DNA of 50,156 nt from Caryophanales bacterium (GTDB lineage Bacteria; Bacillota_I; Bacilli_A; RFN20; CAG-449), in the NCBI GenBank assembly GCA_029006735.1, contig JAQXGN010000006.1, positions 1 through 50,156 on the forward strand, given 5' to 3'. Made by a program: the position numbers and the translations under genes. The notes under the pieces were generated by a model. It was not told the DNA's origin and ran no database searches. It saw only the letters and a list, made by a program, of their open reading frames with translations. Of this stretch, positions 8,090 to 27,591 are shown in pieces (position 1 is the stretch's first letter; every line of letters begins with the position of its first letter).

Positions 8090-9265
8090 TTATATTCCTA
8101 AGAAATCATCATTGAAATTATTTTGTTTATTTCTTATGTGATAATACATTTGTAAATATTTTACACAATTAAATCCTTCAGTGCTTGAAGAAATTCGATA
8201 AGAATCTAAATCGACATAGAATATTAACGTTTGTTTTCCAGAAACAGTCATTTCTTTTATATCATCAAAATTAAATTTAGAATTTCCAATTTGAATATAA
8301 GATGAAGTAAATATAAGTTTTCCTTGATCAAGAAGTTCATCATCACTATTTAAATTTAGTTTATGTAATATTGTATCTTCATCTTGATAAATACAAGCAT
8401 CATTCTCAATTTGATAATCTCTTACATAAGTTTCTTGCTCTTTATACCAATCGGCAACTGTCTTATGTTTGAATTCCTTTTTGTTTGCTTTAAACGTTAA
8501 GTTAGGTAAATATTCAGCGGTTAACCCACAAGAAGAACAAGATATTTCATTTCCTTTACTATGTAAAGTAGAGATTTCTCCACATATTGGACAACGATAT
8601 AAAACCCTTTCTAAATATTCAGCACGTGTAGAAGAAATATAGTCTGATGAAGAAGGAGCTTCAATAACAGTTAAATTCTCAATTACACATCTATATAATT
8701 CTTCAAAGGTCATTTTATTAATCTCTTCTCGAGTTACTATTTTTCTAATTTCACCATAGAATTTACCTTTTGAAGGAACTTTAGAAAAACGAGAATCTTT
8801 ACCAAAACCACCATGGAAATTGTAAAATACAATATCTACTTTTACTTTTTGTATTAATTTTATAGTTGATTCTGCGATATAACAAAGTTCACCAGAGAAT
8901 GTTCTATTTCCTTCAGGATAAAGATAGATAATATTACCTTCTTTACATACTTGAAGCATATTTTTTACTGCAGTTAAATCTTTTAATGTTTTGGCTTTAT
9001 AAATTGGACCAACCCATTTTTCTACTAATCTACGATATTTATGTGGAATAAAATCCTTTGCCATTACTGGATATTTTAAGTTTTTGAATGAACAATAAAG
9101 TAATAATGGATCCCATGTTGTTTGGTGATTAGCCAATATTAAATAGTTTCTTGAATCATCTAATTTATATACTTTACTTTTAAAATTATTCTTACTAAAA
9201 AGAATAACTTTTAATATTGGTCTAATTAATGTATTCATTATCACATGTCTTTTAGTTTTCCACAT
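8090..9265 (-). CDS. PlsC-family acyltransferase with C-terminal zinc ribbon (paralog 1)
   Basis: This 391-residue protein has an N-terminal lysophosphatidate-acyltransferase-type domain with catalytic NHQTTWD (His47, Asp52) and the acceptor-binding YPEGNRTFSGE (116-126). It then departs from ordinary PlsC: a CxxC...CxxC zinc ribbon (Cys225, 228, 243, 246) and a beta-rich tail of about 110 residues that looks PH-like, with a short strand ISSSTEGF. The substrate is unknown; fatty-acyl transfer to a lysophospholipid or another lipid is the family-based guess. The next gene upstream on the same strand is a clear paralog, 44 bases away. The start follows AAGGAGGA. Confidence 0.85.
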   Translation of the reverse strand: MWKTKRHVIMNTLIRPILKVILFSKNNFKSKVYKLDDSRNYLILANHQTTWDPLLLYCSFKNLKYPVMAKDFIPHKYRRLVEKWVGPIYKAKTLKDLTAVKNMLQVCKEGNIIYLYPEGNRTFSGELCYIAESTIKLIQKVKVDIVFYNFHGGFGKDSRFSKVPSKGKFYGEIRKIVTREEINKMTFEELYRCVIENLTVIEAPSSSDYISSTRAEYLERVLYRCPICGEISTLHSKGNEISCSSCGLTAEYLPNLTFKANKKEFKHKTVADWYKEQETYVRDYQIENDACIYQDEDTILHKLNLNSDDELLDQGKLIFTSSYIQIGNSKFNFDDIKEMTVSGKQTLIFYVDLDSYRISSSTEGFNCVKYLQMYYHIRNKQNNFNDDFLGI

Positions 9266-9309: not shown

Positions 9310-10491
9310 TTATAATGTATTGTCTAGTGTATTTTGTATTCTATTATACATTAAATAATATTTATAACTTGAAAATCTAGGTTCTCCATTGAACTGATAA
9401 TAATTTTCACCAATATAAAAGAGAACTTTATGTTTTCCTTGATTAACAACATTTGAAATATCTTTAAAATTAAATATATGCGTTTCTTTACCAACAATAG
9501 AGAAGTGATCACTATACATTTCTAATCTTCCTGTATCAATTCTTTCTTTTTGTTTTCCTTTTGCTACAAGAATCAAATCTACATTGTTATCAGAAAGAAG
9601 AACTTTATTATCTTCGACTACATAATCTTTTAAACAATCTTTTTGGAATCTTATCCAGTCATTTACTTTTTTTAATGCAAAAGGGCCGTTTTCTTTAGAA
9701 AAAGTCATGTTTTCATTATATTTTAATTTTAATCCACAAGTACAATAGACCATATCTTTATTAGAAGAGATAGACTCAAAAGAATGGCACTCTGGACAAA
9801 TAAATAGAACTCTTTCTAAATATTCAGCGTTGTTTTTTGAGCGATATTTTAAATTAGAAGAAGGTGCTTGTGATAAATTATCAACGACAATCTTTAATAA
9901 TTCATCATCTTTTAAGGATTTAATTTCTTCGATTGATAATTCTTTTACAACTCTACCATTAGCACCATTTGATTTTCTTCCACCTTTTCCCCAACGTGGA
10001 TCAATACCATAACCTCCATCAATATAATAAATTAATAAAGGTAATTTTAATAAACGAACAAATTTTACTAATGATAATTCTATATTACCTAATTCTCCGG
10101 AAAAAGTCCTATTTCCTTCAGGGAATAATCCAATATTTCCACCTTCTTTTGCGATGGAAACACATTGTTTAATACATCCTAAATCAATAGATCCTTTTCT
10201 AATAGGAATAGGCGCGACGCAATGTTCCATAAACTTAGATGCGAATCGATTTTTAAAAATATCATCACTTGCAACATAATAGATAGGTTCTTTTAGGGAT
10301 AGGCTAATAAAGAATGGGTCTAAAGTGCATGTATGATTAGAAATAATGATATAGTTTTGATTTTTAGGTCCTTTATAAGGTATTCCCTTAAAATTATATT
10401 TTATTTTACAAAGTAATCTAAAGATAGGACGTAAAGTTGCAAACCAAACTTTATGGCGAAAGTGACACCATTTATTTTTCTTCTTTTTCAT
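9310..10491 (-). CDS. PlsC-family acyltransferase with C-terminal zinc ribbon (paralog 2)
   Basis: This 393-residue paralog of the downstream gene has the same architecture: catalytic NHTCTLD (His53, Asp58), FPEGNRTFSGE (123-133), then a Cys cluster Cys232, Cys235, Cys250, Cys252 and a beta-rich tail. The second Cys pair is C-x-C, not C-x2-C as in paralog 1. Both share NAEYLERVL/RAEYLERVL just before the ribbon, which points to tandem duplication of a gene that already had the tail. The start follows GGAGGG. With the downstream gene it forms a two-gene minus-strand operon. Confidence 0.84.
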   Translation of the reverse strand: MKKKKNKWCHFRHKVWFATLRPIFRLLCKIKYNFKGIPYKGPKNQNYIIISNHTCTLDPFFISLSLKEPIYYVASDDIFKNRFASKFMEHCVAPIPIRKGSIDLGCIKQCVSIAKEGGNIGLFPEGNRTFSGELGNIELSLVKFVRLLKLPLLIYYIDGGYGIDPRWGKGGRKSNGANGRVVKELSIEEIKSLKDDELLKIVVDNLSQAPSSNLKYRSKNNAEYLERVLFICPECHSFESISSNKDMVYCTCGLKLKYNENMTFSKENGPFALKKVNDWIRFQKDCLKDYVVEDNKVLLSDNNVDLILVAKGKQKERIDTGRLEMYSDHFSIVGKETHIFNFKDISNVVNQGKHKVLFYIGENYYQFNGEPRFSSYKYYLMYNRIQNTLDNTL

Positions 10492-15765: not shown

Positions 15766-15786
15766 TTCTATTAAATGAGGTATTTG

Positions 15787-17196
15787 ATGAGAAAAATTAA
15801 AAGCAAAGGGTTAATTCTTTTATATAGTCTTTCTGGTCTTGGTTGTAATTTACTCAATATGATAATGGGATCATATTTATGTGATGCATTAATGATTGAA
15901 GGATTTGACAAAAATATTGAAAATTGGACATATTTGAATAAGACAATTATTGTTGCTTTTGTATGGAGTATTATGGTTACTATCGCTAAAATTATTGATG
16001 GTGTTATTGATATTCCTATTGCCGGAGTAGCAGATAATTTTAAATCTAGATTCGGCAAAAGAAGACTATTTATTCTAATTGGACTTATTCCAATGATTAT
16101 TTTCTATTGCTTATTCTTAGTACCTATTTTTCCAAATGCTACTTCCGATACTATTGGTTATTTATTAGGTAATACCATTTGGTTTGGAGTAATTCTATGT
16201 GGATTCTATATTTCATATACCACAGTAATGGTTACTTATTATGCAACTTTTTCTGAGATTGTTGATAATGATAAAGATCGTATAAGATTATCAAATTATA
16301 AATCAACTTTTGATATTGTATATTTTGTTCTTGGCTATGCATTAATTCCATTATTAATTGGTAATTTAAATATTCGAGTAATTGCATTAATAATGTTACC
16401 TATTTCTTTAACTATGCTTATTCCAATTTTCCTAATTAAAGAAAAAGATAATCGGGTAAAAAAACAAGAAGAAAAAGAAATTGTTGAAGTAGAAGGACAA
16501 TTAATGGAATTTGAAAAGAGTGAAGAAGAAGTTGGATTTTTTGAATCTTTAAAATACACTTTTAAGAATAAAGTTTTCTGGATTTGGATGATTGCTTTTA
16601 GTTTGTTACAATTCGGATTACAAATATTTTTAACAGGACAAAATGTTTATTATTCAGGAACGATGGGATTTACTGGTATTAATATTACCATTATTATGGC
16701 TTGTGCATTTGTACCTGCACCATTTATGTTAATAATTTATAACAAGATGGTAAATAAATATGGATTTAAAGCAGGGTATATTTATGCTTTGTCTTCCTTT
16801 TTAATCGCGATGATTATTATGACAATATGTAATAAAAATATTATTACAGATGATACAATTCGATTAGTAATTGCTTGTGTAGGAGGATTAGTCAGTTCCA
16901 TTGGTATTGGTGCGTTTTTCTCGGTTGGATATTCAATCCCAAGTCAAATTGCATCAGATGAAGCAAAGAAAACTGGAAAATCTCATCCAGCAATGTATTT
17001 TGCTGTTCAAGGATTAGTTTCTGGAGCAGTTACTGCGATTGCAACCGGATTAGTTTGGATTAATTTAAAAGATGATGGATTATCATTTTTATTAACAACA
17101 ATTGTATCAGTTGGTATTTTAGGATCTTTAATCGCAAGTTTCTTCTTACCTAATTATTTTAAAAAGATTGGTCAAGTAGATGATAAAAATGATTAA
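15787..17196 (+). CDS. GPH-family (MFS) sugar:cation symporter
   Basis: This 469-residue transporter has twelve predicted membrane segments. IIDGVIDIPIAG followed by FKSRFGKRR matches the melibiose-permease (GPH) loop between helices 2 and 3 with its acidic helix residues. A charged central loop (about residues 215-250, rich in Glu and Lys) separates the halves. GPH proteins import glycosides, pentosides or hexuronides with Na+ or H+. I chose the ATG at 15787 because GAGG lies 6 bases upstream; an in-frame ATG at 15775 has no ribosome site. No sugar enzyme lies nearby to suggest the substrate. Confidence 0.87.
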   Translation: MRKIKSKGLILLYSLSGLGCNLLNMIMGSYLCDALMIEGFDKNIENWTYLNKTIIVAFVWSIMVTIAKIIDGVIDIPIAGVADNFKSRFGKRRLFILIGLIPMIIFYCLFLVPIFPNATSDTIGYLLGNTIWFGVILCGFYISYTTVMVTYYATFSEIVDNDKDRIRLSNYKSTFDIVYFVLGYALIPLLIGNLNIRVIALIMLPISLTMLIPIFLIKEKDNRVKKQEEKEIVEVEGQLMEFEKSEEEVGFFESLKYTFKNKVFWIWMIAFSLLQFGLQIFLTGQNVYYSGTMGFTGINITIIMACAFVPAPFMLIIYNKMVNKYGFKAGYIYALSSFLIAMIIMTICNKNIITDDTIRLVIACVGGLVSSIGIGAFFSVGYSIPSQIASDEAKKTGKSHPAMYFAVQGLVSGAVTAIATGLVWINLKDDGLSFLLTTIVSVGILGSLIASFFLPNYFKKIGQVDDKND

Positions 17197-17214
17197 TAGG
17201 AGTAAATGTATTTT

Positions 17215-18834
17215 ATGCAAGATAAAATAACTGCAAAATTATTCAAAGATATGATGTTAAATGGAGTAAATAATCTTTCCAATAATGTTAAAGAAATCAA
17301 TGAATTAAATGTATTTCCTGTTCCAGATGGTGATACAGGAACAAATATGAGAACAACTTTAGCAGGTGGAGTTTCTTCCATCTCTCAAGTAGATTCTTTT
17401 TGTGATATGTGTTCTATATTTGCTAGAAATTGTTTATTATCTGCAAGAGGGAATTCAGGAGTAATTTTATCGCAATTCTTTAATGGATTAGCTTTTGTTT
17501 TAAAAAATTTTGATTGTTTAGATGTTAACAATATATATGCTGCTTTTGAAAGTGGTGTTGAATATGCTTATAACTCGGTAGTATCTCCTAAAGAAGGGAC
17601 TATTTTAACTTGTTTTAGAATACCTTTAGAAAAGGTGAAAAATAATTATTCATCTTTAGATGAATTTTTTTCTATTTATATTCAAGAATTAAAAATTGTT
17701 ATTCCTCAAACAAAAATGATGCTTCCAGTTTTATTAGAAGCAGATGTAGTAGATTCTGGGGGTAAAGGATGGCTTTATATTATTGAAGGTATGTATGAAG
17801 CTTTTAAAGGTGTAACTATTGAATCTAATACGGATTTGGATCACATTGATAAAAATGGAGAAGTTAATAATAAACAAATATCTTTAGAAGATGGAATAAA
17901 CTATGGTTATTGTACTGAGTTTATTGTTTTTTTAGCAAAGAATAATCTTTCTTCTTTTGATAAAGAAAAATTCATCAAGAAACTAGAAGAAATGGGAGAT
18001 TCGATTGTTTGTATAAAAGATGATTCATTAGTTAAAGTTCATATTCATACTAAAGAACCAGGTGACGTTATTAACTTTGCCCATAAATATGGTGAATTTA
18101 TTTCATTAAAAATAGAAAATATGTCTTTACAAAATCAAGAGGTTAAGAAAAAGAATAAGAAAGCAAAAAAGCATAAAAAGAATGCGATTATTTCTATTTC
18201 AACAGGAGACGGCTTTGAAACAATTTTTAACGATTTGAATGTTGATGTAATTATTAATGGTGGACAAACAATGAATACTTCTTGTCAAGAGATTATGGAT
18301 GCTTTTGAATTAGTAGATGCAGATAACATTTTTGTTTTACCAAACAATAAAAATATCTTGTTAGCAGCGTTACAAGCAAAGGAATTGACAAAAGATAAGA
18401 ATGTTATAGTTATTGATACAAAAACTCTTGTTGAAGGATATTTTGCCCTATCTTGTATGACTGATCCTAATGGTGAAGAAAAGCAAATTACACAAGAATT
18501 AATTGAAGGAAAGCAAGCAGTTCTTTCTTGTAAAATCACTAAAGCAATTAGAGACTCATCTATTAATGAATTAACTATTAAAGAAGGCGAATATATTGGT
18601 TTTTGCGATGAAAACTTAGTTGTAAATAATACTAATTCACTTGAATGTTTAATTTCTTTATTAGGAAAAATTGATGATTTAGAATCTCATAGTATTGTAA
18701 TTTTTGTTGGACAAGAAGAAAAATATGAACTAGAGGAAATTGAATCGACAATCTATGATAACTATCCAAATGTTGAAATAGGTTTGATATATGGTGGTCA
18801 AGATGTATATCACTATTTAATAGGGGTGATTTAA
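17215..18834 (+). CDS. fakA: Fatty acid kinase catalytic subunit FakA (DAK2/DegV-like)
   Basis: This protein of about 539 residues has an N-terminal DhaL-like kinase domain, with the metal/ATP loop PVPDGDTGTNM (35-45), SARGNSGVILSQFFNG and the DSGGKGW turn, then a linker rich in Lys (KKKNKKAKKHKK) and a C-terminal domain as in FakA. FakA phosphorylates fatty acids held by a DegV-type FakB protein to acyl phosphate, which PlsX and PlsY use for phospholipid synthesis. plsX begins one base after this stop and a DegV protein lies at 24860. Start choice is uncertain: 17206 is 3 bases from the AGGAG, while 17215 aligns better with family N termini. Confidence 0.92.
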   Translation: MQDKITAKLFKDMMLNGVNNLSNNVKEINELNVFPVPDGDTGTNMRTTLAGGVSSISQVDSFCDMCSIFARNCLLSARGNSGVILSQFFNGLAFVLKNFDCLDVNNIYAAFESGVEYAYNSVVSPKEGTILTCFRIPLEKVKNNYSSLDEFFSIYIQELKIVIPQTKMMLPVLLEADVVDSGGKGWLYIIEGMYEAFKGVTIESNTDLDHIDKNGEVNNKQISLEDGINYGYCTEFIVFLAKNNLSSFDKEKFIKKLEEMGDSIVCIKDDSLVKVHIHTKEPGDVINFAHKYGEFISLKIENMSLQNQEVKKKNKKAKKHKKNAIISISTGDGFETIFNDLNVDVIINGGQTMNTSCQEIMDAFELVDADNIFVLPNNKNILLAALQAKELTKDKNVIVIDTKTLVEGYFALSCMTDPNGEEKQITQELIEGKQAVLSCKITKAIRDSSINELTIKEGEYIGFCDENLVVNNTNSLECLISLLGKIDDLESHSIVIFVGQEEKYELEEIESTIYDNYPNVEIGLIYGGQDVYHYLIGVI

Positions 18835-18835
18835 T

Positions 18836-19804
18836 ATGAAAAGAATTATTATTGATACTTTAGGTGGAGACAATGGAGAAAATGAAATCGTTTTAGGTGC
18901 GATTGAATGGATGAAAAACCATCAAAACTACGATGTTTTATTTGTCGGTCATGCAGCTAATATTATTTCTCTATGTGAAAAAAATCAAATACCAGAGGAT
19001 AGATATTTAATAATTGATGCGATGGAAGAAATAACTAATCTTGATAATCCAATGTCGTTATTACATGATAAAGAAAATACATCAATGGTTAAAGCTTTAA
19101 CTGCATTAAATGATGAAAATAATATTGGTTTATTTTCTTGTGGAAGTACTGGATGTTTATTAGTTGGAAGCATTTTTAAAATTGGATTATTTAAAGGTTT
19201 ACGATTTCCTTTTTTAGCTGCAGAATTAATCAAATTTGACTCTTCTCCTTTATGTCTTACTGATTGTGGAGCGAATATTGATGTTAAAGAAAATGATTTA
19301 TTAAATATTGCTAAAGCAGGTAGTGCTTATATTAAATCTTTATATCATAATGAATCACCTAGAGTAGGATTGTTATCTGTAGGAAAAGAAGATCATAAAG
19401 GAAACGAAGTGACAAAAAAAGCATTTAATTTATTAAAAAAATCAGATCTTAATTTCATCGGAAATATTGAAGGAAATGATGTTTTTAAACCCAATATTGA
19501 TGTAGTTGTATGCGATGGGTTTGTTGGGAATATTATTTTAAAAAACGCGGAAAGTGTCGCGTATTCTGCGATGGACATATTAGATAAAATTGGAAATGAT
19601 CCATTATTGGAACAAGCTAAAATAGCAATTTACAAACGTTATGGATATAATAGCCAAGGTGGCTCAGTATTTTTAGGAACTAAAGAAATCATTGTTAAAG
19701 GACATGGAGTTGCATCATCTAGTACAGTTATTAGTTGTATAGATAAGATTGTTAAACTATATGAAAATAATTTTATTTCTTTATTAGAAGAAGAATTTAA
19801 TTAA
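18836..19804 (+). CDS. plsX: Phosphate acyltransferase PlsX
   Basis: This 322-residue enzyme interconverts acyl-ACP and acyl phosphate, the link between carrier-bound and kinase-derived fatty acids. Family stretches seen are IDTLGGDNGENEIVLGA (6-22; the usual DAMGGD reads DTLGGD), SCGSTGCLLVGS, LTDCGANIDVK, VGLLSVGKEDHKGN and VVCDGFVGNIILK. It begins one base after fakA and is followed one base later by a phosphopantetheinyl transferase gene, so the genes are tightly coupled. The GGGGTGA site lies inside the end of fakA. Confidence 0.95.
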   Translation: MKRIIIDTLGGDNGENEIVLGAIEWMKNHQNYDVLFVGHAANIISLCEKNQIPEDRYLIIDAMEEITNLDNPMSLLHDKENTSMVKALTALNDENNIGLFSCGSTGCLLVGSIFKIGLFKGLRFPFLAAELIKFDSSPLCLTDCGANIDVKENDLLNIAKAGSAYIKSLYHNESPRVGLLSVGKEDHKGNEVTKKAFNLLKKSDLNFIGNIEGNDVFKPNIDVVVCDGFVGNIILKNAESVAYSAMDILDKIGNDPLLEQAKIAIYKRYGYNSQGGSVFLGTKEIIVKGHGVASSSTVISCIDKIVKLYENNFISLLEEEFN

Positions 19805-19805
19805 T

Positions 19806-20360
19806 ATGGAAAAGATATATTATTCTTTAAGAAAATTTAAAGATTTGGATTATGTAAATTTACCTTCAAACATTGTTTCGCATTTAGAAAAATATCATTT
19901 GAAAAAGCAAAAAGATATATCTACTTATGCTTGGATATCTCTTGGAAAATTAATGGAAAAGGTAATTGGAAAAAACATATTAAATCAAGTGTTTTTTTCT
20001 ATTAATGGAAAACCATTATTAAAAGACTTTTATGTGTCAATGTCACACGACGAAGAATATGTTTTAGTATCATTATCTAAAATAAATCATGGGGTAGATA
20101 TTGAAAAAATAAAAGAAGATTATAATGAAAAAGCAATAACTAAATTCAATGATATTGTGATTAAGAATAAAGAAGATTTTTTTCTATATTGGACTAGAAG
20201 AGAAACCATTATTAAAGTTGAAGATATCTCTTTATTTTCAAAAGTAAACTATTTAGATTATAATTTTAATAGTTTTATCGAAAATGATTATATGATATCA
20301 ATTGGTAGTAAAGAGGAAGAAGAATTAATTAGGGTTAACTTAGATGAGTATGGAGAATAA
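19806..20360 (+). CDS. 4'-phosphopantetheinyl transferase (Sfp-like)
   Basis: This 184-residue protein installs the phosphopantetheine arm of CoA on carrier proteins. The Mg-binding GVDIE (96-100) and the WTRRE-x3-K motif (129-137) are both intact, and VSMSHDEEYV (78-87) matches the first Sfp motif. It is shorter than Sfp (about 220) but longer than AcpS (about 120), as in reduced single-domain Sfp types. Two carriers are encoded directly downstream (Ser603 of the next gene and Ser40 of the protein at 23530) and are the obvious targets. It overlaps the ligase gene by 17 bases. Confidence 0.9.
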   Translation: MEKIYYSLRKFKDLDYVNLPSNIVSHLEKYHLKKQKDISTYAWISLGKLMEKVIGKNILNQVFFSINGKPLLKDFYVSMSHDEEYVLVSLSKINHGVDIEKIKEDYNEKAITKFNDIVIKNKEDFFLYWTRRETIIKVEDISLFSKVNYLDYNFNSFIENDYMISIGSKEEEELIRVNLDEYGE

Positions 20361-22275
20361 GAATAAGATTGTTAGACAACACTGCAGATTATTAGAGAAT
20401 TCAAATAAAACATTTGAAGATATTTTTAATGTGATGTTTCTTATGGAAGATCATATTTTTATTGAATATGAAGATAAATATAAAATAGTTGAAGAAACAT
20501 ATGGTCAAATAAAAAATAAAATCAAAGATGTAGCTTTTTCTATTGAACAAAAACTACAAATTAAAAACCAATATATTGCTTTAGCTATGGAAAATTCTAG
20601 TGCTTGGATTATTACATTTTGGGCGATATTAATGAGTGGGAATAAACCATATTTATTAAATTTAAGACACCCTAAATCTCTAAGTGAAAAGATTATGCAT
20701 ACATTGAATATACAATATGTTATTTCTTTAGAAGAAGATACTTATTTAGGCGTAAAAACCGTAATATTTAATCAATTAGATTTAGTGGTTAATAATGAAT
20801 ATAAGTATCATTTTGGAAATGAGATTGCTCTTTCAACAAGTGCGACTTCACTAAAAGAGAAAATAGTATTTTATAAGGGAGAAAACTTCGCAGAACAAAT
20901 ATTAAATGCAAGAAGTTTAATTAAAAGAAATCCGATTCTAAAAAAACATTATAAAGGACATTTGAAGTTACTTGCATTTCTTCCTTTTTATCATATTTTT
21001 GGATTAATTGCTTGTTATTTTTGGTTTTGCTTTTTTGGTAGAACAGTTGTTTTATTAAAAGATTATTCACCAGATTGTATTATTAGAACTATAAAAAAAC
21101 ATCAAGTAACGCATGTTTTTGCAGTCCCGTTATTGTGGCATACGATAGAACAAAAAATTATTAAGAAAGTCCATCAAATGGGAGAAAAAAAAGAAACGAC
21201 ATTTAATAAAGCGATTGATTTTTCTATTAGATTACAAAATATTTTTCCTCATTTAGGTAAAATTATTGCAAGAAAAATTTTTAAGAAAGTAAATGAAAAT
21301 TTATTTGGAAATTCGGTTGTAATGTGTATTTCTGGAGGATCGTATATTAAGGATTCTTCACTTAAATTAATAAATGCATTAGGATATCCTTTATTTAATG
21401 GATATGGAATGAGTGAGATAGGTATTACAAGTGTCGAATTAAGGAACAAACCAAAGTATCGACTACTAAATTCAATTGGAAAACCTCTTGATTCTGTCCA
21501 GTATTATATTAAAGATAACGTTTTATTTGTTAAGGGGAAATCTACTTCATATAAGCTTTGTGTTGATGGAGAATATATTAATAATGATGATATTTTTAAT
21601 ACATGCGATGTTTGTAAAATGGATGATAAAGGATATTTCTATATATTAGGGAGAAATAATGACATTGTTATATCTGATTCAGGAGAAAATATTAATCCTG
21701 ATTTAATTGAAAAAGAATTTATTTTAAATACTTCATATCGTTATTCAATTTTAGGGTTAAAGAATAGTGATAATAATGATGAATTATCTCTAGTTATTGA
21801 ATTAGATAGAAGCACAACTAAAATGCAGATTATTAAATTAATCGATGAGGTAAATAGTTTAAATAATCAATTAGATTTAGTTTATCGCATTAAGCATTTC
21901 TATTTTACTTATGATTTAATTTCATCTCAACGAGCGATAAAGGTAAGTAGATCCTATTTAATAAATGGAATTAAGAATAAAGAAATTAATTTAATTGATT
22001 TTAAGACAATGCAAGATTTAAAGAATAGAAAAGATGATTGTGAATTAGAATTAGTCGATATAATTAAAGAAATATTTGCTGATGTATTACACAAAAATAT
22101 CGAAGAAATAGATAATAACGCTCATTTTTTCAATGATTTAGGAGGGACGAGTTTAGATTATTTTGATTTGATATCAAAAATAACTAATCGATTTGATGTT
22201 TCTTTGAATTTTTCTAAAGATGAGGTTGCAAATACAGTCAATGAATTGGCTATAGTAGTGGGGAAAAAGATATGA
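20344..22275 (+). CDS. AMP-forming acyl ligase fused to a C-terminal acyl-carrier domain
   Basis: This 643-residue protein has an ANL adenylation domain (about 1-545) with LPFYHIFG (213-220), NGYGMSEIG (352-360), YFYILGRNNDIV (431-442) and a candidate catalytic Lys533. A carrier domain (about 565-643) has phosphopantetheine Ser603 in LGGTSLD. It should activate an acid as acyl-AMP and load it on its own carrier. The A3 phosphate loop is abnormal: STSATSLKEK (164-173) lacks the Gly and Pro of the consensus but keeps Lys. The gene starts inside the transferase gene and its TGA stop overlaps the next ATG (ATGA); that TGA is the only one in the window, and TAG follows three codons later. The substrate is unknown; a fatty acid is inferred from the neighbours. 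Confidence 0.87.
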   Translation: MSMENKNKIVRQHCRLLENSNKTFEDIFNVMFLMEDHIFIEYEDKYKIVEETYGQIKNKIKDVAFSIEQKLQIKNQYIALAMENSSAWIITFWAILMSGNKPYLLNLRHPKSLSEKIMHTLNIQYVISLEEDTYLGVKTVIFNQLDLVVNNEYKYHFGNEIALSTSATSLKEKIVFYKGENFAEQILNARSLIKRNPILKKHYKGHLKLLAFLPFYHIFGLIACYFWFCFFGRTVVLLKDYSPDCIIRTIKKHQVTHVFAVPLLWHTIEQKIIKKVHQMGEKKETTFNKAIDFSIRLQNIFPHLGKIIARKIFKKVNENLFGNSVVMCISGGSYIKDSSLKLINALGYPLFNGYGMSEIGITSVELRNKPKYRLLNSIGKPLDSVQYYIKDNVLFVKGKSTSYKLCVDGEYINNDDIFNTCDVCKMDDKGYFYILGRNNDIVISDSGENINPDLIEKEFILNTSYRYSILGLKNSDNNDELSLVIELDRSTTKMQIIKLIDEVNSLNNQLDLVYRIKHFYFTYDLISSQRAIKVSRSYLINGIKNKEINLIDFKTMQDLKNRKDDCELELVDIIKEIFADVLHKNIEEIDNNAHFFNDLGGTSLDYFDLISKITNRFDVSLNFSKDEVANTVNELAIVVGKKI

Positions 22276-23546
22276 GACACTTTTTAGTTTGGCTTGCTAA
22301 AATAACAGGATGGCCTATATACTTTTTTATGTTTAGAAAAAAGGTATATTACGAGAATAGAAAAATACAAGGAAGAAATATCAAAAAGAGAGCGATTATT
22401 GTATCAAATCATCGATCAATAAAAGATTTTGTTTTATATTTAGGCGTTTTTCCATGGCGATTTATCCATTGTTTAGTTGGTGAAATGGTTTATCAAAAAA
22501 ATAAATTATTAAATTTTATCTTATGGTCTATTGGAGCAGTTAAAGTTGATCGTCAAATTCATGATTTAACCTTCATGTCCAAAGCTGAAAGTTTATTAGA
22601 AAAAGAAAAAGTTTTATTAGTTTTTCCAGAAGGTAAATTATCATTAAATGGACGAGTTGATAAATTTTATGAAAGTTATGTTTTACTTGCTTTAAAAACA
22701 GGATCACCAATTATTCCAGTATATACTGACGGTAATTATTCGTTTAAAAAAGGGGCTAATGTCATTATTGGTGAGCCTATTGATTTACGTGATTATGTCA
22801 ATAGTGATAATCCAACTAAAGAAGAAATCACGCGTTTAAATAAGATTGTAAGAACTAAGATTATTTATTTAGGGAGATTATTAGAAGAGAAAAAAGGACT
22901 TAAAAAGCCAAATATTTTTAGACTTCTTTTCTGGGATTTAGGTAGAATATTATTTTATTTTTCTAATTTCCGTTATCGAGTAAAACCGATTTATAAGGAT
23001 AAAAAAGATTTAAAAGTTAAAGGTAAATCAATTATTATTTCTAATCATTCTAGCTTTTCTGATGTCTTTATTATTGTTGATACATTCTGGAGAAGAAGAT
23101 TAAATATTTTAGCAGCAGAGATCGTATTTGACAATCATCCAATTAGATCGTTTTTTTTAAAAGGCCTTGGGTGTATTAGAATAGATCGAACAAAGAATGA
23201 TATTGACGCAATAAGACGATGTCAAAATGCATTAAATAGAGGGGGAGCGTTATTAATTTTCCCAGAAGGAAGAATTATTAAAGATAACACTTTGTCATCA
23301 TTTAAACAGGGAGCGGTTTTACTTGCAGTACAAACAAAAACAGATATTACTCCAACATATATTTCACCAAAAAAGGAAAAGGGAAGAACGATTATTTATG
23401 TGGGAGAAAGAATAAAAGTTAGTGAAATGTTTGGAGACAAACTTCCATCTTTAGAAGAAATTGATTTAATCTCTAACACATTATATGATAGAATCAATAA
23501 GATGAAAGAAATAGATGATGGTAGAAAAGATGGAAGAAATATTTAA
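22272..23546 (+). CDS. Double PlsC-type acyltransferase
   Basis: This 424-residue protein carries two complete acyltransferase modules in one chain. Module 1 has NHRSIKD (His47, Asp52) and FPEGKLS (118-124); module 2 has NHSSFSD (His259, Asp264) and FPEGRI (329-334). Both keep the catalytic H-x4-D pair and the acceptor-site EG motif, so both may be active. Hydrophobic N-terminal stretches (LVWLAKITGWPIYFFMF) suggest peripheral membrane binding. Such an enzyme could put both chains on glycerol phosphate or transfer to two different acceptors. It is coupled to the ligase gene by an ATGA overlap, and the carrier gene starts inside its end. Confidence 0.88.
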   Translation: MRHFLVWLAKITGWPIYFFMFRKKVYYENRKIQGRNIKKRAIIVSNHRSIKDFVLYLGVFPWRFIHCLVGEMVYQKNKLLNFILWSIGAVKVDRQIHDLTFMSKAESLLEKEKVLLVFPEGKLSLNGRVDKFYESYVLLALKTGSPIIPVYTDGNYSFKKGANVIIGEPIDLRDYVNSDNPTKEEITRLNKIVRTKIIYLGRLLEEKKGLKKPNIFRLLFWDLGRILFYFSNFRYRVKPIYKDKKDLKVKGKSIIISNHSSFSDVFIIVDTFWRRRLNILAAEIVFDNHPIRSFFLKGLGCIRIDRTKNDIDAIRRCQNALNRGGALLIFPEGRIIKDNTLSSFKQGAVLLAVQTKTDITPTYISPKKEKGRTIIYVGERIKVSEMFGDKLPSLEEIDLISNTLYDRINKMKEIDDGRKDGRNI

Positions 23547-23778
23547 TAAATTAATTGAAATATTAAAAAATCTAGCCTTTAATAAAGAACTAGATTATTC
23601 AAAAATAACAATGGATTCACGAATTGTTGAAGATATTGGGTTAAATTCAATCGGTATGTTATATATGGTAATTGCGTTTGAAAAAGAATTTCAAATTCAA
23701 GTTCATAACATATCATCAGATTTATTTGTAACAGTAAGAGATGTCGTTAAGTTTATCGATGAAGAGATAAATGGCTAA
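23530..23778 (+). CDS. Free acyl carrier protein
   Basis: This acidic protein of about 82 residues has the four-helix carrier pattern and Ser40 in DIGLNSIGML as the phosphopantetheine site. It overlaps the end of the double acyltransferase gene in another frame; starts at 23515 or 23530 are both possible. It diverges from housekeeping AcpP, which normally has DSLD at the attachment site, so it is probably a dedicated carrier of this operon and not the main fatty-acid-synthesis ACP. A terminator overlaps its last codons. Confidence 0.87.
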   Translation: MEEIFNKLIEILKNLAFNKELDYSKITMDSRIVEDIGLNSIGMLYMVIAFEKEFQIQVHNISSDLFVTVRDVVKFIDEEING

Positions 23779-23793: not shown

Positions 23794-24753
23794 TTAATAA
23801 TTTTTGTTTTCTTCAAGGAAAGAAGCAATCTCTGCATCATATTTTTCTTCATCATTAATTCTTACATGAGAATGTGCACCTTTATCAAACCAAACTAGTT
23901 TTTTATTACTGCTTCCGCATTTATTAAATAATATAACTGCTTTTTTTGGTAAAGAAAATTGATCTTGTTTAGTATAGATAAATAAAATTGGAATTTTAAT
24001 GTCTTTTACTTTATGAATAGGGCCAATCCAAGGGTGAGTTTTTGCCTTAAATTTTTGCATTAACATTACTTCATAATAAACAGGAAAAATAGGGCGATGA
24101 TCAACAATCATATGCCTTTTGAATGTTTCGGCAAAATGGACATAAGTTCCATCAACAATGATTCTATTTATATAAGGAGGGCAGTTTTTACTAGTAATCG
24201 CATAAATAGATGTAGCTGCACCAATACAAATACCATGTAATATTATTTCTTTGATGTGATATTCATCATGAAGGATAGTGGACCATTTTAATATATCTTT
24301 ATATTCTTGAAACCCTACAGCGTTATATATTCCATCACTTAATCCATGGGCTCTAATATCCATAACTAAGATATTATAACCAAGTTTTGCATATGGAATA
24401 GCAAAGTAATAAGAATATAATAATGATTCAGTTCTTCCTTGAGAGATAATGACACATTTATCTGAACCAAAATCAAAGTATTGAGCGTAAAGATTTAATC
24501 CATCATTAACCATATGTAAATCAGTGATTTTATCTTTGTTTTCGTTTGCCCATTTTATTCCTCGATTAAACATTGTTACTTGTTCTTCATTATCAGGCGC
24601 AGAACAGCTTCTTCCCCATTTTTCTTTAGAATCTCTAACCAAGTTGTCTTTAAAAACTTTTTTGGCGATTGGAAGAGTCATTGTTATCATAATAATAAAT
24701 GATAGGATTATTATTGAAAAAACAATAATCAATATTATTTGCCATATCTCCAT
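23794..24753 (-). CDS. Membrane-anchored alpha/beta hydrolase with Cys at the nucleophile position
   Basis: This 319-residue protein has an N-terminal membrane segment (IILIIVFSIIILSFIIMI) and then an alpha/beta hydrolase domain: DIRAHGLSDG, the nucleophile elbow GICIG (Cys176), an acid in YTKQDQF and the catalytic His in GAHSHVRI. Close relatives in Firmicutes usually read G-x-S-x-G, so Cys in place of Ser is notable and would favour a dienelactone-hydrolase-like or other thiol mechanism, or loss of esterase activity. The start follows GGAGGA. It converges with the lipid operon and diverges from degV behind a shared repeated motif; a role in lipid turnover is a guess. Confidence 0.82.
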   Translation of the reverse strand: MEIWQIILIIVFSIIILSFIIMITMTLPIAKKVFKDNLVRDSKEKWGRSCSAPDNEEQVTMFNRGIKWANENKDKITDLHMVNDGLNLYAQYFDFGSDKCVIISQGRTESLLYSYYFAIPYAKLGYNILVMDIRAHGLSDGIYNAVGFQEYKDILKWSTILHDEYHIKEIILHGICIGAATSIYAITSKNCPPYINRIIVDGTYVHFAETFKRHMIVDHRPIFPVYYEVMLMQKFKAKTHPWIGPIHKVKDIKIPILFIYTKQDQFSLPKKAVILFNKCGSSNKKLVWFDKGAHSHVRINDEEKYDAEIASFLEENKNY

Positions 24754-24810: not shown

Positions 24811-24859
24811 TATTAAGAAAAATATGTATAATAATATTTATTATGAGGAGAAGAAAGAT

Positions 24860-25792
24860 ATGAATGATTATGTAATTATACCAGATGTTACATGTGATCT
24901 CCCTAAAGAATTACGTGAAAGATTTGGAATTGTTGATTACGTCCGTAGTCACTTAAATTTACCTGATGGAACTGATATTCCATCTGATTTAGAATGGGGT
25001 TACTCTAATCCAACAGATTTTTACAAAATGATGAAGAATAAGAAAAATGTTTTTTCTACATCAACTCCAACACCAGAAGATTTTATTGCTTGTTGGGAAA
25101 AATTTTTAAAAGAGGGTAAAGATATTATTTCCGTTACTATTTCAAGTGCTTTAAGTGGAAGTTATGGTTTTTCTTGTAAAGCAAAAGAAATGTTGGATAA
25201 AAAATATCCAGAAAGAAGAATTGTATGTATTGATTCATTACGTTATTCAACAGCATTTGGTGTCATTTGTTGTTATGCAGGTGAGAAAAGATTAAATGGT
25301 GCGACATTTGATGAAGTTGTTTCTTGGATTAATGAAAATAAAAATTGTTTCCATCAAATGGGACCAATGGAAGATTTATATTTCTTAGCAAGAAAAGGAA
25401 GAATAAATAATTTTAAAGCTTTCATGGGAACATTAGTTGGAGTTAAACCTTGTGGTGATTTTAATAATGATGGTATGACAACAGTTTTATATAAACCAAA
25501 AGGACAAGAAGCAACATATAATTTCTGTATTGAATATATTCGTAAAACAATCATTAAACCAGAAGAACAATATATTTTTATTTCTAATACTGCAAGAAAA
25601 GAACAAGCAGAGGAATTATCTAGAAGAATTAAAGAAGCGTTTAATCCAAAAGAAGTATTCGTTGTTGATGTTCAACCAGCATGTGGAATAAATGTTGGTC
25701 CAGGCTTATATGCAGCATATTATTACGGTAATAAGATTGAAGATGATATGGCATATGAAAAACAAGTTGTTTCAGAAATAACAAAACAATAA
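24860..25792 (+). CDS. DegV-family fatty-acid-binding protein (FakB-like)
   Basis: This 310-residue DegV protein binds a fatty acid and presents it to FakA for phosphorylation. Family features are the N-terminal VTCDLP, TSTPTPEDF, SSALSGSYG for head-group binding, and LARKGRINNFKAFMGTLVGVKP. The start at 24860 follows GAGGAG with a 9-base gap; an upstream in-frame ATG at 24824 lies in the promoter -10 region and is unlikely. It stands alone, 7 kb from fakA, so the two may be separately regulated, here through the repeats at 24780-24810. Binding preference cannot be read from sequence. Confidence 0.9.
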   Translation: MNDYVIIPDVTCDLPKELRERFGIVDYVRSHLNLPDGTDIPSDLEWGYSNPTDFYKMMKNKKNVFSTSTPTPEDFIACWEKFLKEGKDIISVTISSALSGSYGFSCKAKEMLDKKYPERRIVCIDSLRYSTAFGVICCYAGEKRLNGATFDEVVSWINENKNCFHQMGPMEDLYFLARKGRINNFKAFMGTLVGVKPCGDFNNDGMTTVLYKPKGQEATYNFCIEYIRKTIIKPEEQYIFISNTARKEQAEELSRRIKEAFNPKEVFVVDVQPACGINVGPGLYAAYYYGNKIEDDMAYEKQVVSEITKQ

Positions 25793-25983: not shown

Positions 25984-27591
25984 ATGGTTAATAAAAGGAA
26001 TAAGTGGAGCTTATCTCTTGGATGTATTGGAAGAGATATGTGTTACACTCTAGTAAGCTTGTTTTTACTTACTTATTTACAATTTACAGGACTTGTAGAT
26101 ACTAAACAATTTGTTGTTTTAACTGTAATAATTGTTTTATGTCGTATTTGGGATGCGATTAATGATCCAATGATGGGTACAATAATTACCAATACAAAAA
26201 CTAAATTTGGTAAATACCGTCCTTGGGTTTTAATTGGTGCTCTTACTAATGCTTTAGTAATGGTATTGATGTTTACAGTTAGATTCAATAATGGGTGGGC
26301 AAATGTAGCTTTTATCGGTGTAATGTATCTATTATGGGGTATGACTTTTACAATGAATGATATTTCTTATTGGGATTTATTACCTGCTTTAACAAGCGAT
26401 AAAAAGGAAAGAGATTCATTAACAACTAGTGTTGCAGTATTCGCATCTTTAGGTGCTTTTATTTCTGGAGGAGTTGTTCCTATTCTTACTCCAGGACGTA
26501 TGGTTATGGCTTATAGAATTATTTCAATTGTCTGTGCTTTAGTATTTGTTGGATGTCAATTATTGGTTTTCTTTGGGGTTCATGATAATAAAGATGATTC
26601 TTTTATTGAACGTAAACATGAAGAAGATGAAGATAAACAAGAAAAAGTCACCTTAAAAGGAATGGTAAAAATTCTTATTTCCAATAACCAATTAATGGTT
26701 ATGGCAATTGTTATTCTTTTATATTCATTAGGGAGTGCAATATTAAACGCATTTGGTCAAAACTTCTTTTATTTTAAATATGGATATATCACTAATGATG
26801 GAACGATGTCTGGTGGAACAATGATGACGATTTTCACAGTTATTTATGGTGTAGGGACATTGATTTCACAAGCAATCTATCCAGCATTAGCAAATAAGTG
26901 GAAGAGAAAACAATTGATTAATTTTTCCATTATTTCTTTAATAATCGGATATGTAGTTTTCTTTGCTATTTCTATTATTCCTGGATTACCAAAAGTTGTA
27001 TCATTTATCATCTTATGCATCATAGGATTATTTATCTTTGCCGGCCAAGGTGTATTTTACTTAACAATGCTTGTTATGTTGACAAATACGATCGAATATG
27101 GAGAATGGAAAACAGGTAAAAATAACGCGGCAATTACATTCACTATTAGACCATTTATGGTTAAACTTGCTGGAGCTATTCAATATGGAATCGTTGCGTT
27201 AACTTTAGTTATTTGTGGTTTAAATGTTATTACAAATAAGGTTGGAGATGTAGAAACTGTATTAGGTATGTTACAAGAAGGTAAATTAGCTTCAATAAGT
27301 GAGTGTATTACATATCTAGAAACAAATATGGGACATTCTGCTTCTACAATTTATGAGTTTATTGACCCAATAGCAGGATTAAGTGTCGATACATTAAAAG
27401 CATATTCTGAATCATTATTCCAACAAGCTACTACTGGCTCAGTAATTGGTTTAACTGCAGTTATGTGTATTGTTCCTATTTGTTTATTTATCATCGCTTG
27501 GATTGTTGCAAGAAAGAAATATATTATTGATGAAGATAAATATAATGAAATCATGATGGATTTAGAACGACGTAAAAACGAGAATAATTAA
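25984..27591 (+). CDS. GPH-family (MFS) sugar:cation symporter
   Basis: This 535-residue membrane protein has twelve predicted segments. WDAINDPMMG followed by TKFGKYRPW is the characteristic GPH loop and carries the Asp residues that bind the coupling cation in melibiose permease. Between the last two helices there is an insert of about 70 residues (VGDVETVLGMLQEG onward), which makes it longer than usual GPH proteins (about 450-480). It is transcribed alone from a clear promoter and closed by a terminator. The sugar is unknown. It is only distantly like the symporter at 15787. Confidence 0.9.
   Translation: MVNKRNKWSLSLGCIGRDMCYTLVSLFLLTYLQFTGLVDTKQFVVLTVIIVLCRIWDAINDPMMGTIITNTKTKFGKYRPWVLIGALTNALVMVLMFTVRFNNGWANVAFIGVMYLLWGMTFTMNDISYWDLLPALTSDKKERDSLTTSVAVFASLGAFISGGVVPILTPGRMVMAYRIISIVCALVFVGCQLLVFFGVHDNKDDSFIERKHEEDEDKQEKVTLKGMVKILISNNQLMVMAIVILLYSLGSAILNAFGQNFFYFKYGYITNDGTMSGGTMMTIFTVIYGVGTLISQAIYPALANKWKRKQLINFSIISLIIGYVVFFAISIIPGLPKVVSFIILCIIGLFIFAGQGVFYLTMLVMLTNTIEYGEWKTGKNNAAITFTIRPFMVKLAGAIQYGIVALTLVICGLNVITNKVGDVETVLGMLQEGKLASISECITYLETNMGHSASTIYEFIDPIAGLSVDTLKAYSESLFQQATTGSVIGLTAVMCIVPICLFIIAWIVARKKYIIDEDKYNEIMMDLERRKNENN

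Follow-up and report, generated by a model that had tools for sequence, protein, structure and literature searches.

The LplT-Aas system of Escherichia coli activates an acid onto acyl carrier protein (ACP) and passes it, through a PlsC-type transferase, to a lysophospholipid, with a transporter of the major facilitator superfamily (MFS) encoded alongside; it has been described as identified in Gram-negative bacteria only (PMC11416262). In Firmicutes, exogenous fatty acids are handled by the FakAB-PlsX-PlsY-PlsC pathway, and in Enterococcus faecalis the carrier AcpB, encoded beside plsX, receives its acyl chain from acyl-phosphate via PlsX (PMC6509188). Soluble acyl-ACP synthetases of the AasS type charge the cell's ACP. 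Here we describe an operon on a 50,156-nucleotide stretch of a Caryophanales bacterium genome (contig JAQXGN010000006.1, positions 1 to 50,156; this whole stretch is the window below), which encodes on its forward strand (17206-23778), in this order, FakA, PlsX, a phosphopantetheinyl transferase (PPTase), an ANL acid ligase with a fused carrier, a tandem PlsC acyltransferase and a free ACP. In our view the locus is rather probably an acylation system with two arms, in which exogenous acids are used to make or remake a diacyl glycerolipid. We see the set as a variant of systems already known for acyl activation and lysolipid acylation, standing outside LplT-Aas and apparently unnamed. A limited literature search found no paper naming it and no curated pathway model covers it, in agreement with a preliminary description, made from the sequence alone, that knew of no pathway with exactly these genes.

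With LplT-Aas the operon shares the activation of an acid onto ACP, PlsC-type transfer, an Aas-like motif III and an adjoining MFS transporter, and by analogy the same lysophospholipid acceptor might be expected. It differs in having two carrier arms, two PlsC lineages, a carrier fused to the ligase and the FakAB-PlsX proteins. Whereas in Aas the acyl-ACP synthetase domain is fused to the transferase, here the ligase is a separate protein, and the transporter belongs to the MFS_2 family and not to the LplT family; having looked for both the fusion and an LplT-family transporter and found neither, we rejected membership in LplT-Aas. With the Firmicutes pathway the locus has in common FakA, FakB, PlsX and a free ACP beside plsX, and PlsY is present in the genome; the pairing of PlsX with the free ACP matches, by analogy, the AcpB precedent. 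To that pathway it adds the ligase-carrier, the tandem PlsC, the PPTase, a hydrolase and the transporter in one cluster. As in the AasS type, the ligase is expected to form acyl-ACP, and it has the adenylation residues and A10 lysine of the acyl-ACP synthetases of the ANL superfamily; AasS relies on the cell's ACP, and the operon ligase carries its own. As an analogy, the whole resembles a split, duplicated Aas joined to the Fak pathway.

The six genes nearly touch or overlap throughout, with spacings of +1, +1, -17, -4 and -32 bp, and the place and order given in the preliminary description are confirmed. FakA, the catalytic subunit of fatty acid kinase (17206-18834), is of the YloV family (TIGR03599, E = 1.3e-155, 519 bits; PF13684; PF02734), and is followed by a paralogue of PlsX, the acyl-phosphate:ACP acyltransferase (18836-19804; PF02504, E = 9.5e-66, 222 bits), a Sfp-type PPTase (19806-20360; weak matches to PF01648, E = 0.056, and NF047349, E = 2.5e-7), the ligase with its C-terminal carrier domain (20344-22275; PF00501, 101 bits; PF00550, 41.7 bits), the tandem PlsC protein (22272-23546; two PF01553 stretches, with module 1 at about residues 1-212 and module 2 at about 213-424) and the free ACP (23515-23778; TIGR00517, E = 1.5e-10; PF00550, E = 0.006). 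These assignments are strong, the PPTase excepted. No specific curated NCBIfam model scored above its cut-off for the ligase, the tandem PlsC or the ACP, the general acyltransferase domain model TIGR00530 being the only one to pass among these three. The limits of the operon were set by gene spacing, because promoter-like sites are rarer there than in shuffled sequences and terminator-like sites are only weak. The GC content of its genes (0.23-0.28, against 0.29 for the window) is indecisive on horizontal transfer.

The recurring set reaches past these six genes, and the limits of 17215-23778 given earlier proved too narrow. Upstream, a GPH-type MFS_2 transporter on the same strand (15775-17196; PF13347, E = 9e-38) ends 9 bp before fakA; downstream lie an alpha/beta hydrolase on the reverse strand (23794-24753; PF12146, E = 7.5e-12), with an N-terminal helix and a cysteine nucleophile, and, on the forward strand, a FakB/DegV-type fatty acid binding protein (24824-25792; PF02645, E = 4e-51; NF038249, E = 9e-25). 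FakA and FakB fall below the stricter NCBIfam equivalog cut-offs for FakA and FakB1. A FAD-dependent oxidoreductase (PF21688; 14341-15765) lies directly 5' of the transporter, and such an oxidoreductase also directly follows the ACP in several Lachnospiraceae clusters (L106, L108, L129, L132, L153), making it a possible further member. A second MFS_2 transporter just 3' of FakB (25984-27591) was not seen within the recurring set.

An alignment-based search of species genomes with the ligase returned 374 stretches encoding relatives (a scan of genome contigs with the single sequence gave no match), and detailed maps were drawn for the best 80 of these 374. The 80 loci come from metagenome-assembled genomes (MAGs) of Bacilli, Clostridia and lineages labelled Mycoplasmatota, many from gut or rumen; they include some near-identical MAGs and duplicate genomes, the duplicate copies being kept in the raw counts and dropped from trees and association tests. 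Near the ligase we found PlsC at 76 loci, the hydrolase at 61, FakA at 60, FakB at 51, PlsX at 41 and ACP at 38, and a six-frame search recovers free ACPs absent from the map of open reading frames. Four layouts can be distinguished: FakA-PlsX-(PPTase)-ligase-PlsCC-ACP with hydrolase and FakB; a compact FakB-FakA-MFS_2-ligase-PlsC-hydrolase; ligase-(MFS_2)-PlsC-PlsC-second ligase-ACP-LRAT-PPTase; and FakA-ligase-PlsC/LRAT fusion-FakB-hydrolase. The six-gene order is found again in other families, as the gene-order search proposed in the preliminary description was meant to reveal, and is therefore far beyond chance. Full-length ligase-carrier relatives occur in many genera of the order. Many of its genomes also hold a subfamily of ligase-carriers of about 665 amino acids (L073-L081, e.g. 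L076:8420-10420) without PlsC or FakA, at a fixed site beside rpsT-, holA-, comEC- and lepA-like genes.

A strict rule of composition concerns the free ACP and its loader, either PlsX or a second ligase: both are present in 54 cases and neither in 17, with three cases of ACP only and none of loader only. Fisher's test gives 5e-14, a value that is not a probability of function because the rows are related, and the four to five phylogenetically independent informative pairs are all concordant. PlsX (45 loci) and the second, carrier-less ligase of about 505 amino acids (9 loci) never co-occur. Because PlsX is found only with the free ACP and alternates with the second ligase, FakA and PlsX appear to make up one of its arms and not to be the mere neighbours for which they had been taken.

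The PlsC modules also fall into two lineages. First- and second-position modules, whether fused or split, form two clades with a single change over 142 modules in a FastTree phylogeny (the L055-L060 group showing long distances), and single modules lie nearest the first-position clade in 21 of 21 cases. The HX4D motif is found in all 142, at positions 47 and 259 in the window protein, accompanied there by FPEGKL in module 1 and FPEGRI in module 2. The latter matches E. coli Aas (FPEGRITT) and not E. coli PlsC (FPEGTRSR), whose EGTR is not the common form among the cluster modules; likewise, the module-2 profile scores 55 bits against the Aas N-terminus and 50 against PlsC, and the module-1 profile matches both equally. 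Elsewhere in the window, two adjoining PlsC-type acyltransferases on the reverse strand (8090-9265 and 9310-10491) have weakly zinc ribbon-like C-terminal regions, and a protein similar to these adjoins the ligase in L045.

Residues expected for carrier activation and acid adenylation are intact, as had been stated earlier for the PPTase and the carriers. The phosphopantetheine serine of the fused carrier is Ser603 (DLGGTS); that of the free ACP (DIGLNS), invariant among 13 homologues, is Ser45 when counted from the first ATG and Ser40 if translation begins at Met6. The PPTase has the Sfp-type motifs GVDIE at 96 and WTRRETIIK (WxxxExxxK) at 129, a clearer homologue occupies the equivalent position in L053 (PF01648, E = 1e-9), and no other PPTase candidate was found in the window genome, where two of the three carriers belong to the operon and one ACP is encoded elsewhere. 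In the ligase, the A10 lysine K533 together with E358, D422 and R437 is invariant over a 56-row alignment. The best sequence models for the ligase are MenE and FadD-type acid ligases; it scores higher against FadD than against Aas, and acid-CoA ligase models score about twice as high as the amino-acid adenylation model, leaving no sign of the preference for amino acids that the preliminary description had named as a refutation. The AlphaFold model (pLDDT 89.9) has as Foldseek neighbours adenylation-peptidyl carrier (A-PCP) didomains, MenE, MatB and acyl-ACP synthetases; the PDB entries 8jyl/8hsy, of the soluble AasS type, were matched in a separate search. From gene context the substrate is likely a fatty acid, and we infer fatty-acid specificity.

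The remaining partners point to lipids from outside the cell. The hydrolase has a Cys176/Asp264/His294 triad with the nucleophile motif GICIG, all three residues are conserved without exception in the 36 homologues compared from ligase clusters, and the AlphaFold model (pLDDT 96.1) lies nearest in fold to the Pf2001 esterase and monoacylglycerol lipases. LRAT-domain proteins (PF04970), which are phospholipase/acyltransferases working on phospholipids (LRAT/PLAAT), are present in 35 ligase loci. Eight genomes of the order have an LRAT match downstream of the ligase, within 72-690 bp of it; in five of them the match coincides in place with the PlsC gene, and the four proteins tested there were all PlsC-LRAT fusions (L055:10152-11105, L056:6890-7864, L057:9621-10592, L060:2351-3313). 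The transporter family (cluster MFS14) is found in 17 of 80 ligase loci and is embedded in many ligase clusters, the window protein being 36-48% identical to members in other clusters; a PDB sequence search with the transporter alignment gave no match, and an alternation of MFS_2 with PlsX (counts 15/1/38/14) is not claimed, as independent pairs gave it no support. In view of the hydrolase, the LRAT proteins and the PlsC motifs, we favour scavenging or remodelling of exogenous lipid over plain synthesis of phosphatidic acid; it was the overlooked transporter, hydrolase, FakB and, in relatives, LRAT that shifted the reading in this direction. The self-contained unit of acyl activation, loading and transfer with dedicated carriers, proposed earlier, is supported, and the accompanying idea of a "specific lipid" as product is not supported as stated.

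We propose that in the first arm the ligase would adenylate a free acid, load it onto its own fused carrier and so supply PlsC module 1, and that in the second arm FakB and FakA would turn exogenous fatty acid into acyl-phosphate, from which PlsX would pass the acyl chain to the free ACP (which in relatives may be charged by the second ligase) for use by module 2. The PPTase would activate the carriers, the membrane-anchored hydrolase, with LRAT-type enzymes in relatives, probably frees or redistributes acyl chains, and the MFS_2 transporter probably brings in the acceptor, which would be a glycerolipid, perhaps a scavenged lysolipid; a lysolipid or glycerophosphodiester as its cargo is our guess. 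We infer the direction of flow, the pairing of carriers with modules and the acceptor. The purpose is probably to rebuild membrane lipids from host or dietary lipid scraps.

Several observations weigh against this two-arm scheme. The pairing of the free ACP with the second PlsC (58 cases with both, 17 with neither, 9 and 4 exceptions) rests on few events, since only about two informative independent pairs exist, all concordant. FakA-PPTase-ligase-PlsCC-LRAT clusters such as L092, L101, L112 and L159 have neither free ACP nor PlsX, and therefore module 2 there would need another donor. The ligase sequence, best matched by MenE and generic FadD models, does not single out the acid, and the best structural neighbours of its predicted model include amino-acid A-PCP didomains. 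The transporter was rejected as an LplT (hhalign probability 0.08%), and MFS_2 members often carry sugars. Finally, PF04970 was not found in the window genome.

The locus might alternatively be a second copy of the standard FakAB-PlsX-PlsC phospholipid pathway with its own ACP, yielding ordinary phosphatidic acid, with the ligase as an auxiliary acyl-ACP synthetase. FakA, FakB, PlsX, ACP and PlsC are indeed the textbook Firmicutes parts for exogenous fatty acids (PMC6509188), and a genome without ketoacyl synthase (KS) or FabH is expected to depend on such acids. However, the genome already holds PlsY (on C55, E = 8.8e-44), another ACP and two further PlsX genes (on C54, 37%, and C37, 30%, out of three in all), same-genus genomes without KS also lack the ligase, the PlsC modules do not have EGTR, as in E. 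coli PlsC, for their usual motif, and the fused carrier, LRAT and transporter would be superfluous, so that we regard this explanation as unlikely. The C54 locus (G000:C54, L062) is a second FakB-FakA-PlsX cluster, near which an FAD oxidoreductase and an alpha/beta hydrolase are encoded; it has no ligase.

The fused carrier and Sfp-type PPTase recall natural-product machinery, the top Foldseek match of the ligase is a nonribosomal peptide synthetase A-PCP didomain and glycosyltransferase genes lie near some clusters, all of which would suit a specialised secondary metabolite, either a lipid or something like a lipopeptide, for which the ligase would load an unusual, aryl or amino acid on its carrier and the acyltransferases would attach it to a head group, a sugar or an amino alcohol. 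We consider this quite unlikely, given that condensation, ketosynthase and other assembly-line domains are absent from the scanned cluster proteins (and KS from the genome), that the amino-acid adenylation model scores far below the acid-CoA models, and that the genes constantly found alongside encode fatty-acid salvage proteins and hydrolases. A dlt or teichoic acid system finds no counterpart either: no MBOAT or DltD occurs among the operon proteins scanned, and the free ACP scores far higher with TIGR00517 than with the DltC model. That these are housekeeping lipid genes which share a transcript but do not work together could be argued from the common families to which the parts belong and from loci that lack one or more of them, but the gene overlaps, the loader/ACP rule and the rearranged yet constant content in distant lineages make this highly improbable, and the co-occurrence data largely refute it.

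The operon is an accessory and not a replacement for fatty acid synthesis (FAS). The window genome (1.49 Mb, 94% complete) gave no match to the KS C-domain or to FabH-type proteins (PF08545), and in its order KS is lacking from 272 of the 279 genomes. This agrees with the report that the Bacilli order RF39, to which the window presumably belongs, lacks fatty acid synthesis, with only a Fak-type route proposed (PMC6784871). The expectation that holders would lack FAS stands for this genome, but not for all others: 35 of the 50 holders from the species-genome scan are without KS, a figure overstated by MAG incompleteness, and 15 have it. Because seven same-genus genomes have neither KS nor a match to the ligase, a role of the operon in place of FAS, suggested earlier, is rejected. 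The patchy presence of the ligase, in one of eight same-genus genomes, suggests transfer or loss, but in the tree the window sequence stands outside any well-supported small clade. In nine holder genomes (G281, G285, G293, G302, G304, G308, G297, G299 and G292, with loci L088, L092, L101, L112, L114, L122, L106, L108 and L100, respectively) we also observed an unusual tandem KS, an open frame of about 800 amino acids with two KS C-domain matches.

In mitis-group streptococci, the scavenging of glycerophosphocholine and lysophosphatidylcholine (lysoPC) would require a transporter and two acylations in succession, and the acyltransferase and transporter genes have been reported as unidentified (PMC6805115); the cluster described here could perhaps supply such functions. 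A tentative and more specific version of the two-arm system, which we hold to be rather unlikely, is that it imports a glycerophosphodiester or lysolipid, such as host glycerophosphocholine or lysoPC, and acylates it once or twice from its two carriers, so that gut bacteria without FAS would gain host-type membrane lipids. The cluster provides candidate genes for lysolipid and glycerophosphodiester acylation in Gram-positive bacteria, and it offers a concrete, testable answer to how uncultured gut lineages that lack FAS assemble their membranes. That two routes of acyl loading are so widely combined with two lineages of acyltransferase may also bear on the resistance of these lineages to culture.

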